NCBI RefSeq assembly: GCF_005771675.1
Contig: NZ_VAJM01000001.1
Location: forward strand, 124,001 to 188,000
DNA from: Hymenobacter jeollabukensis
GTDB taxonomy: Bacteria; Bacteroidota; Bacteroidia; Cytophagales; Hymenobacteraceae
Reading direction: 5' to 3'
DNA: 64,000 nt
This document shows positions 33,240 to 34,886 of the stretch, one piece after another (within the stretch, counting starts at the first letter, position 1; each line of letters starts with the position of its first letter). The notes under the pieces were generated by a model that saw nothing but the letters and a program-made list of their open reading frames with translations, searched no databases and was not told where the DNA came from. A program made the position numbers and the translations under genes.

Positions 33240-33809
33240 ATGCGTACCGTTTGGCTCATGTTTGGAGCCCTGATGACTTTGCTGTTGGGCGTACTGGGCT
33301 GGCAGCAGCTGCGCCCCGATGCCCCCGTGCCCGCCAGCGGCGACCTGCCGCCCGTGCGCGCCGTGGTGTACCGCGCCGCCACCGCCCCCCGCCGCCACGC
33401 CTCCGCCGACCGCGCCGACCAGCTCGTGAGCTTCGCCCTGCGCCAGCTCGGCAAGGCCTACTGCTACGCCGGCACCACCCCCGAAGGCGGCTTCGACTGC
33501 TCCGGTTTCCTCACCTACGTCTACGGGCAGTTCGGCGTCGACGTGCCCCACTCCTCGGCCCTGCAGTACAAAACCGGCACCGCCGTCCCCCGCGCCGAGG
33601 CCCGCAAGGGAGACCTGATCATCTTCACCGGCACGGCCCAGGACGCCACCACGCCCGGCCACGCCGGCATCGTCATCTCCGAGCCCGGCCAGCCCCTGCG
33701 CTTCGTCCATTCCTCCTCGTCGCGGCGCGACCCGGGCGTGAAAATCAGCCAGGTCGATGGCACCGACTACGAGCGGCGCTTTTTGGGCATCCGGCGCGTG
33801 CTGTTGTAA
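33240..33809 (+). CDS. NlpC/P60 (C40) peptidase, membrane-anchored
   Basis: A 189-residue cell-wall endopeptidase. An N-terminal hydrophobic segment (TVWLMFGALMTLLLGVLGW) is a signal anchor. The C40 domain has catalytic Cys87 in GFDCSGFLTYVY, His141 in GHAGIVI, and a His in RFVHSSSS. It should cleave D-Glu-diaminopimelate or related peptide bonds in peptidoglycan. It is divergent from the M61 gene. Its stop codon TAA is also the first base triplet of a short AAATGG repeat element. Confidence 0.92.
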   Translation: MRTVWLMFGALMTLLLGVLGWQQLRPDAPVPASGDLPPVRAVVYRAATAPRRHASADRADQLVSFALRQLGKAYCYAGTTPEGGFDCSGFLTYVYGQFGVDVPHSSALQYKTGTAVPRAEARKGDLIIFTGTAQDATTPGHAGIVISEPGQPLRFVHSSSSRRDPGVKISQVDGTDYERRFLGIRRVLL

Positions 33810-33881: not shown

Positions 33882-33925
33882 TAAAAACAGCGAGGCCCGG
33901 CTGCCTTCACAGGTAGCCGGGCCTC
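33882..33925 (-). terminator. rho-independent terminator of the 34.1-kb small transcript
   Basis: Stem of 15 bp with one mismatch (33892-33906 with 33911-33925); on the minus strand it is followed by GCTGTTTTTAT. Confidence 0.8.
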
Positions 33926-34039
33926 TAATCCTGGGGCCATCTTACCAAGCGACCGGCCACCGGGGATACCGGTGCGGCCATCTCAGTTCAGACCTGCCGT
34001 AATGCAGGGAAACATACGCCCCCCCGCGACACTTGAGTG

Positions 34040-34111
34040 TTACGCGCGTTCGGCGGTGAAGCGAACGACATTACTCAGGCTTGGCAGGATGGATTTGGGA
34101 CTATCAGACAT
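34040..34111 (-). CDS. 23-residue micro-ORF with an exceptional Shine-Dalgarno sequence
   Basis: ATG at 34111, TAA at 34040-34042. The peptide starts MSDSPKSILPSLSNV and ends VRFTAERA: polar, slightly basic at the end, no Cys and no membrane segment. The ORF is preceded 5 bases upstream by an 11-base perfect complement of the 16S rRNA tail. It lies inside a transcription unit of about 320 nt defined by a TAACTTTA promoter element (34208-34215) and a terminator (33882-33925). Between stop and terminator, hairpins at 33958-33974 and 33993-34008 suggest structured RNA. It could be a real peptide, a translated regulator or a dual-function RNA. I do not recognise it. Confidence 0.6.
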   Translation of the reverse strand: MSDSPKSILPSLSNVVRFTAERA

Positions 34112-34116
34112 TTTGT

Positions 34117-34127
34117 ACCTCCTTTCT
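34117..34127 (-). promoter_or_regulatory. extended ribosome binding site
   Basis: On the minus strand it reads AGAAAGGAGGT, which can pair over 11 bases with the usual 16S 3' end ACCTCCTTTCT. It is 5 bases from the ATG. No other gene in the window has a comparable site. Confidence 0.75.
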
Positions 34128-34207
34128 TTTTGGTGAAACATAACCGTCGGGGGCGCTACCAACAACTTAGGTCCGCTGGCCGGGGCTGTAGCACTCGCTA
34201 CGATGAC

Positions 34208-34238
34208 TAAAGTTATACGCCTATCGAATGGTTCAAAA
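34208..34238 (-). promoter_or_regulatory. promoter (-33 TTTTG, -7 TAACTTTA) of the small transcript
   Basis: On the minus strand TTTTG at 34238-34234 is followed after 18 bases by TAACTTTA at 34215-34208, close to the Bacteroidota consensus spacing. Transcription would start near 34201, leaving a ~90-nt leader before the micro-ORF. Confidence 0.55.
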
Positions 34239-34448: not shown

Positions 34449-34886
34449 ATGAAAAAGCTCCTCCTGTGCCTGGTGTTTCTGCTAGGTGCGCTCGGCGTGG
34501 CCTCCGCCCAAAATCTCACGCCGCTGGGCGTGTGGACCAACGGCGAGAAGAAAGCCACCTTCGAGATTTACAAGTGCGGCAACAAGCTCTGCGGCAAAAT
34601 CGTGTCGTTGACGGTGCCCAACGACCCGGCCACCGGCAAGCCCAAAACCGACTCGCAGAACCCCGACCCCAAGCTGCGCAGCCGTCCGCGCCTGGGCCTG
34701 GTGTTTATGCAGGACTTCGAGTACGACGAGGCCAACAAGTGGGACGACGGGAAAATCTACGACCCGGAAAGCGGCAAGACCTACTCCTGCTACATGAAGA
34801 TGCTCAACGCCAACACCATGGAAGTGAAGGGCTACATCGGTTTTTCGCTGATTGGCCGCTCGCAGACCTGGACGCGGGTGAAATAA
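34449..34886 (+). CDS. DUF2147 domain-containing secreted protein (copy 1)
   Basis: A 145-residue exported protein with a signal peptide ending near VASAQN (residue ~21). The rest is one DUF2147 domain: LGVWTNGEKKATFEIYKCG, NKLCGKIVSL, QNPDP, WDDGKIYDPESGKTYSCYMK and EVKGYIG (quoted in parts). Two Cys in the first part (KCGNKLCG) may pair. DUF2147 forms a small beta barrel of unknown role. A second copy follows 116 bp downstream. Confidence 0.93.
   Translation: MKKLLLCLVFLLGALGVASAQNLTPLGVWTNGEKKATFEIYKCGNKLCGKIVSLTVPNDPATGKPKTDSQNPDPKLRSRPRLGLVFMQDFEYDEANKWDDGKIYDPESGKTYSCYMKMLNANTMEVKGYIGFSLIGRSQTWTRVK

Follow-up and report, generated by a model that had tools for sequence, protein, structure and literature searches.

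The stretch of DNA analysed here, referred to below as the window, comprises 64,000 nt from Hymenobacter jeollabukensis (assembly GCF_005771675.1, contig NZ_VAJM01000001.1, positions 124,001-188,000 of the forward strand). Between an NlpC/P60 gene that ends at 33809 and a DUF2147 gene that starts at 34452, both on the plus strand, direct reading of the minus strand confirms the compact unit that an earlier sequence-only reading had described at 33882-34238 (Table 1). The putative -7-type promoter element TAACTTTA departs in its last base from the consensus TAnnTTTG that is quoted in the Flavobacterium psychrophilum transcriptome paper (PMC9723704), and by eye TTTTGAACC or a similar sequence is found in family members at the place of the -33-type element. 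The ATG, at 34111, follows the extended Shine-Dalgarno (SD) element after 5 bases. At the other end of the unit, the putative terminator consists of a hairpin stem at 33925-33892 and a T run that begins a few bases past the stem and ends at 33883, and a terminator-like hairpin with a T run is seen by eye at the same place in relatives. The RNA of the window folds better than 100 of 100 shuffled versions (z -3.1). Simple terminator and sigma-70 scans gave no match at the locus, Bacteroidota promoters being outside the reach of that scan, and ARAGORN found no tRNA or tmRNA there. An upstream open reading frame (ORF) that reads ATGTCGGAT... through the SD was dropped as a candidate, as its frame ends elsewhere in other clades (by eye).

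Table 1. Features of the unit, in positions of the window.
Feature	Position	Strand	Basis
-33-type promoter element TTTTG (putative)	34234..34238	-	sequence
-7-type promoter element TAACTTTA (putative)	34208..34215	-	sequence; relatives
Hairpin P1, GUAGC-GAGU-GCUAC	34188..34201	-	stem compensation; expected RNA 5' end
Small hairpin, UAAG-type loop	34158..34172	-	by eye: CCC/GGG, CCA/TGG and TTCA/TGAA stems
Extended Shine-Dalgarno AGAAAGGAGGU (DNA AGAAAGGAGGT)	34117..34127	-	sequence; conservation
23-codon ORF MSDSPKSILPSLSNVVRFTAERA, stop included	34040..34111	-	sequence; length and synonymous excess in relatives
Helix 1, 5' arm AGUCC	34098..34102	-	pairs with GGAUU in 65/65 distinct rows
Helix 2, 5' arm CCAUCCUGCCAAGC, inside ORF	34079..34092	-	covariation
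Helix 2, 3' arm GCUUGGUAAGAUGG	33937..33950	-	covariation; RNAalifold
Helix 1, 3' arm GGAUU (in AGGAUU), just before terminator	33927..33931	-	conservation; RNAalifold
Terminator hairpin and T run (putative)	33883..33925	-	fold; relatives by eye

Conservation in relatives, the lack of which the sequence-only reading had itself named as part of what would refute it, holds for the peptide start, the SD, the spacing and the structure alike. By DNA similarity, 25 of 58 genomes, the source genome among them, have a single copy each, and all 25 loci have the SD, a start codon and a peptide of 20-23 residues. A sequence-only core model of 74 positions, built from 36 loci, matches, at E <= 0.01, 67 of the 291 genomes sampled from the order, and 54 of the 291 are counted as carriers once most of the weak matches had been read. 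The window's own family accounts for 45 of 45 sampled genomes, with one copy in each at E <= 1e-7 (not every one of them read by eye), and in other families of the order, sized by the list of the same 291 genomes, the RNA is carried by 7 of 8 genomes of f5, the single genome of f17 and 1 of 10 of f20. A pattern scan of named genomes yielded 39 stretches, 35 of them genuine by eye, and the named carriers are Pontibacter, Adhaeribacter, Xanthocytophaga, Chryseolinea, Ohtaekwangia, Dawidia, Pseudochryseolinea, Parachryseolinea and several metagenome-assembled genomes (MAGs). Among 395 class-wide genomes, 13 match model R1 and 14 match model R2 at E <= 0.001, both searches having used stricter filters by which weak matches are lost; nine are genuine in each case, four from the window's family, four from f23 and one from f51. 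Diverged forms are thus present in two further families, f23 and f51, and 5 of 13 genomes of f23 carry the RNA when G691 is counted. By these counts the RNA belongs chiefly to Cytophagales, with diverged representatives in one other order, and is, taken as a whole, a conserved, single-copy RNA gene across a large group of Bacteroidota.

Weak matches of R1 and R2 that were read and judged not to be this RNA lie in G213, G131, G079, G067 (two), G198, G189, G227, G126, G305, G208, G616 and G635; G421, G684, G353, G613, G422 and a second place in G623 were judged likewise. The weak matches left unread are those of G060, G089 and G113, from which no locus was taken, and those of G469 and G653, for which no SD-like site was listed. 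Pattern matches L030, L031, L033, L041, L148, L150, L158 and L164 were dropped as false, as was the single viral one (L312), which begins a long unrelated ORF, and no similar sequence was found in plasmid DNA.

Bacteroidota rarely use SD pairing, and their anti-SD is kept but hidden. Within the window the SD of the unit is the sole match with at most one mismatch, as the earlier reading had stated; 0.35 such matches are expected and 30 of 100 shuffled windows hold at least one, so that the element by itself is weak evidence. Its first ten bases, AGAAAGGAGG, occur 9 times in the 6.18-Mb genome (21 times for the reversed control), the complete 11-mer occurs only at this locus, and two of the other eight AGAAAGGAGG sites are followed 4-6 bases on by an ATG that opens frames of 32 and 26 codons. 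Across relatives the SD is retained while the flanking sequence diverges, with an exact 11-mer in 69 of the 74 non-redundant loci, or 98 of 103 when repeats are counted. Its duplex with ACCUCCUUUCU has a median of -17.6 kcal/mol, which is also the value at the window locus, and reaches -16.7 kcal/mol or stronger in 102 of 103 loci, with the remaining one at -8.2; pairing below -13 kcal/mol upstream of the start codon, by which an extended SD is recognized, is therefore found here. Of 31 genomes, 17 yielded a 16S end, which closes with ACCTCCTTTCT in every case, the source draft assembly giving none, and the SD is complementary to this whole 16S tail. The start codon is ATG in 70 and GTG in 4 of the 74 loci. 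The one locus with weak pairing belongs to a 75%-complete MAG (G112, locus L202), in which the RNA is present and the SD core GGAGG is deleted, whether by real loss or by assembly error.

Note also that few other strong SDs were seen. One of them, GAAAGGAGGTAACAATG, precedes a hydrophobic, probably membrane protein gene in two genomes of family f14 (L200 and L201, in G131 and G079). At L030 (~1501-1530, G207) and L227 (~1518-1550, G635) a perfect SD is followed at once by an ORF of 10-11 codons, and at L030 another ATG-started frame comes after it. The codons of these ORFs spell the anti-SD (GACCTCCTTTC / GCCTCCTTTCTTT), so that the SD would be hidden in a hairpin, and both loci look like a different, self-locked SD leader.

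The main feature of the unit, missed by the sequence-only reading, is a covarying helix between the ORF start and a 3' arm. Codons ~4-11 pair with the arm just before the terminator, where AGGATT stands in 88 of 88 loci, preceded by a GRTAARATTT-like sequence. By eye, CCATC/GATGG of the window's genus is compensated as AAATC/GATTT in the sister genus, as TTTCATC/GATGAAA in G051, as TTTTGTC/GACAAAA in G100 and as CGAGC/GCTCG in Pontibacter burrus, and helix 1 reads AGTCC/GGATT as against GTTCC/GGAAT in the outlying family f23. The helix was scored on an alignment, A3, of 66 of the 74 loci (65 distinct), all from Cytophagales, which leaves out L198, L202 and six f23/f51 rows. In A3, 94.4% of 1200 cells are paired, as compared with 88.6% in shuffled and 25-50% in slid alignments, both partners vary in 13 of 19 pairs, and two-sided changes occur in 88 cells where shuffling leaves 11.0; none of 500 shuffles, which ignore relatedness, reaches any of the five measures, the structure having been chosen on the same sequences on which it was scored. 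In helix 2, 13 of the 14 pairs have changes on both sides and 92.3% of the cells are paired (duplex of -29.0 kcal/mol at the window locus). In helix 1, four of five pairs never vary in the 65 rows of A3. One pair of the structure, 25-205, is unpaired in 22 of the 65. RNAalifold, applied to A3, proposes the same helix and no other (15 pairs, 9 changed on both sides).

The arms also fit their own partners best, mean pairing over 74 loci being -21.9 kcal/mol for cognate, -17.1 for swapped and -12.4 for shuffled arms; no permutation out of 2000 attains the cognate mean, in a set that included L202 of G112 with a wrongly picked 3' arm. In the Chryseolinea group cognate arms do little better than swapped ones (-18.2 against -17.1), and single-sequence folds there often miss the helix (mean 8.3 pairs, some 0). 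Such folds leave the SD about half unpaired (mean 0.48 over 73 loci) and give, at the window locus, 7.0 expected helix pairs and a mostly paired AUG (0.25 unpaired). Nearer the 5' end, the stem of P1 is replaced by complementary versions (GATAGC/GTTATC, GGCTGC/GTAGCC, GGTGAC/GTCACC and GGCGGC/GCCGCC), by which P1 is to be regarded as a second covarying element. Its loop is GAGU in 37 and GGUC in 13 of the 74 loci; the rule used found no hairpin in 5 of the 74 and picked another hairpin in some rows.

The best-argued use of the anti-SD in Bacteroidota is the autoregulation of rpsU, the gene of bS21, and perhaps of a few other ribosomal protein genes. In Flavobacterium johnsoniae, ribosomes without bS21 favour the extended SD of rpsU, and mutation of Y54 or loss of the bS21 C-terminus raised translation of a strong-SD template, according to McNutt et al. 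(2023, PMC9976891), who also place about 20% of Cytophagales, mainly Cyclobacteriaceae, among the genomes that satisfy the criteria of that paper for an rpsU SD. The words Hymenobacter and small RNA are absent from its main text. We found rpsU in 22 of 22 and 62 of 62 genomes searched; in the source genome it lies on another contig (C27) and is without a strong SD, and the encoded bS21 keeps Y54. This residue is present in 35 of 40 carriers (5 lack it) and in 41 of 43 non-carriers of the RNA. That the unit would respond to ribosomes with an exposed 16S tail, as the sequence-only reading had proposed, is what we can best infer, since bS21 keeps Y54 and rpsU has no strong SD.

An rpsU SD that pairs at -10 kcal/mol or stronger occurs in 0 of 34 Cytophagales carriers (strongest -6.9) and in 10 of 39 non-carriers, three unparsed paralogous loci (two of G660, one of G623) being excluded from this comparison. 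We rejected a strict trade-off between the RNA and the rpsU SD, as nine of these ten non-carriers belong to one family (of which 12 genomes were tested) and four of five f23 carriers also have a strong rpsU SD; with both present in f23, a family of another order, replacement of rpsU autoregulation by the RNA is not established. The f23 genomes G603, G623, G660 and G308 each have two or three rpsU-like genes, and the first three of them also carry the RNA. In some of the Cytophagales families tested, both the RNA and a strong rpsU SD are missing, and the function of the RNA is therefore dispensable in the order. For rpsR, which encodes bS18, a strong SD is found in the tested genomes of g3, g4 and g6 (-12.2 to -13.6 kcal/mol) and in G051 (-16.3), and none in those of the window's genus, g2 and g5 (loci L107-L128), in a set that leaves out two unparsed f5 genomes.

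The ORF measures 19-23 codons in all 74 non-redundant loci. The nearest-neighbour synonymous excess is 0.300 over the whole ORF (null 0.226) and 0.278 from codon 12 to the end, outside the helix (0.209), values that none of 200 simulations reached; for codons 2-11 it is 0.340 against 0.254, within the simulated range (maximum 0.348). This points to a modest coding constraint on the ORF, and the unit might be an ordinary small-protein mRNA in which the peptide of 19-23 residues is the product and the SD and the structure merely set its expression. Kept frame and length, the excess over the whole ORF and its distal codons, and a recurrent N-terminus, MS(S)xPKxIL, are what such an mRNA would leave behind; yet the excess stays inside the simulated range at just those N-terminal codons, whose conservation coincides with the helix, the C-terminal half is barely alike between clades (by eye), and Pfam and NCBIfam gave no match for six peptides, the 23-aa peptide of the window being among those without a Pfam match. 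We consider this explanation unlikely, if one to be taken seriously, and translation itself may matter as much as its product; the peptide signal suggested by the sequence-only reading gained no specific support. A short ORF in a structured RNA would also suit a type I toxin or the precursor of a ribosomal peptide, an origin that is very improbable for peptides that show no long hydrophobic stretch (by eye) and whose gene occurs once in each of the 45 family genomes sampled, with no similar plasmid DNA.

The same sequence of ORF, hairpins and terminator resembles an attenuator, and the ORF could in principle encode the leader peptide of a neighbouring gene. The next downstream ORF is convergent in 16 of 20 loci of a first set and in 20 of 35 of a second (3 of the 35 being undetermined). 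Co-directional cases number 4 of 20 and 12 of 35 and come mainly from the Chryseolinea group; all these directions refer to picks of the longest ORF and not to gene calls. The co-directional genes, which speak for attenuation, differ from one another even within the Chryseolinea group, and from clade to clade (by eye), so that no single conserved co-directional gene is found past the terminator; the window locus itself is followed by NlpC/P60, which is convergent. A divergent DUF2147-like gene, recognized by Pfam for the window and by eye elsewhere, usually lies close to the RNA in the window's family. By eye, the genes around the RNA in f5, f17 and the Chryseolinea group bear no relation to those that flank it in the window. 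Because neighbours change between clades and the next ORF is mostly convergent, the unit is most likely a separate gene and not a leader, and attenuation is quite improbable. The RNA might also be a ribosome decoy, which would capture and hold 30S subunits with a free 16S tail and would not need its peptide. Complementarity of the SD to the full tail favours it, as do the unusually stable complexes reported on rpsU mRNA with its extended SD (PMC9976891), but the ORF is under some coding constraint, the gene is single-copy and a decoy would need very high RNA abundance, which makes it a rather improbable role. Finally, that the SD arose by chance in a non-functional spacer, as the matches with at most one mismatch in 30 of the 100 shuffled windows might suggest, is next to impossible to reconcile with the conservation, the covariation and the coding constraint.

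We return to exposed-tail ribosomes and put forward, tentatively and with somewhat less than even confidence, that the unit is a free-standing gene for a structured RNA of ~320 nt which doubles as a small mRNA and would act as a sensor of ribosome state. The helix would keep SD-less initiation, the usual route in Bacteroidota, away from the ORF start region, and the cost of opening this region would be borne by the 11-bp SD pairing, so that ribosomes whose 16S tail is free (because bS21 is absent or the bS6-bS18-bS21 pocket is not intact) should translate the ORF preferentially. Translation would in turn melt the helix and free the 3' arm, and the RNA could report through the peptide, through the freed 3' arm in trans, through 30S capture or through the act of translation; it would thus be a trans-acting or peptide-producing sensor, a dedicated RNA built on the same logic as rpsU autoregulation. 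In favour of this sensor we count conservation, the single copy, the kept SD, the compensatory helix, the changing neighbours, Y54 and the 0 of 34 carriers with a strong rpsU SD. Against it we count shuffles that ignore relatedness, a helix 1 that hardly varies, pair 25-205, the weak single-sequence folds, the swap result in the Chryseolinea group, the coexistence with a strong rpsU SD in f23, G112 without its SD core, the RNA-less families and the 5 of 40 carriers without Y54. A more specific form of the sensor, which we regard as doubtful, is a riboregulator of ribosome composition whose helix-locked start codons would be opened only by ribosomes with an exposed 16S tail, the released 3' arm (GGUAAGAUUU...AGGAUU) or the peptide then acting in trans; if this were true, the state of the bS21 pocket would be broadcast to other genes.

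The covariance models of Rfam 15 gave no match at the gathering threshold for the window and 10 loci from other clades, and sub-threshold matches (ncr1175, Pxr, P17 and others; best E 0.11) were judged to be chance. A full-text search of open-licence PMC papers brought up no account of an RNA of this kind, and passages of the F. psychrophilum transcriptome paper (PMC9723704) deal with other small RNAs. The claim of an undescribed unit, made at first for the window alone, is thus borne out for one that is also kept in relatives, and by these comparisons it constitutes a separate, new RNA family, whose ORF is so short that annotation can miss it. A conserved single-copy RNA that sets a whole-tail SD over a covarying gate suggests a second use of the hidden anti-SD, offers a ready reporter for free-tail ribosomes and makes the purpose of this anti-SD testable in culturable Pontibacter, Adhaeribacter, Chryseolinea and Hymenobacteraceae.

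Dual-function small RNAs with a short ORF are known from other bacterial systems, RNAIII/hld and SgrS/SgrT among them. Like these, the unit combines a short ORF with compact RNA structure and ends in a terminator-like element of its own; differently from them, its SD goes against the rule of its phylum and the ORF start itself forms one arm of a conserved long-range helix. Its anatomy and changing neighbours fit a free-standing RNA gene, although the simple scan for promoter and terminator found neither. The strong SD of rpsR in Bacteroidota, treated in PMC9976891, provides a further SD-bearing gene in some of the same genomes; however, rpsR is a ribosomal protein gene, and it lacks such an SD in the genomes tested from g2, g5 and the window's genus. 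The closest parallel is the autoregulation of rpsU as set out in PMC9976891: in both cases an extended SD to the 16S tail occurs in an SD-avoiding phylum and is expected to favour ribosomes with an exposed tail. Here, in contrast, the controlled ORF encodes not bS21 but a 23-aa peptide without a Pfam match, the SD lies on a separate structured RNA with an ORF of 19-23 codons, a covarying helix from the ORF to the 3' end is added, and the 34 Cytophagales carriers tested do without a strong rpsU SD.
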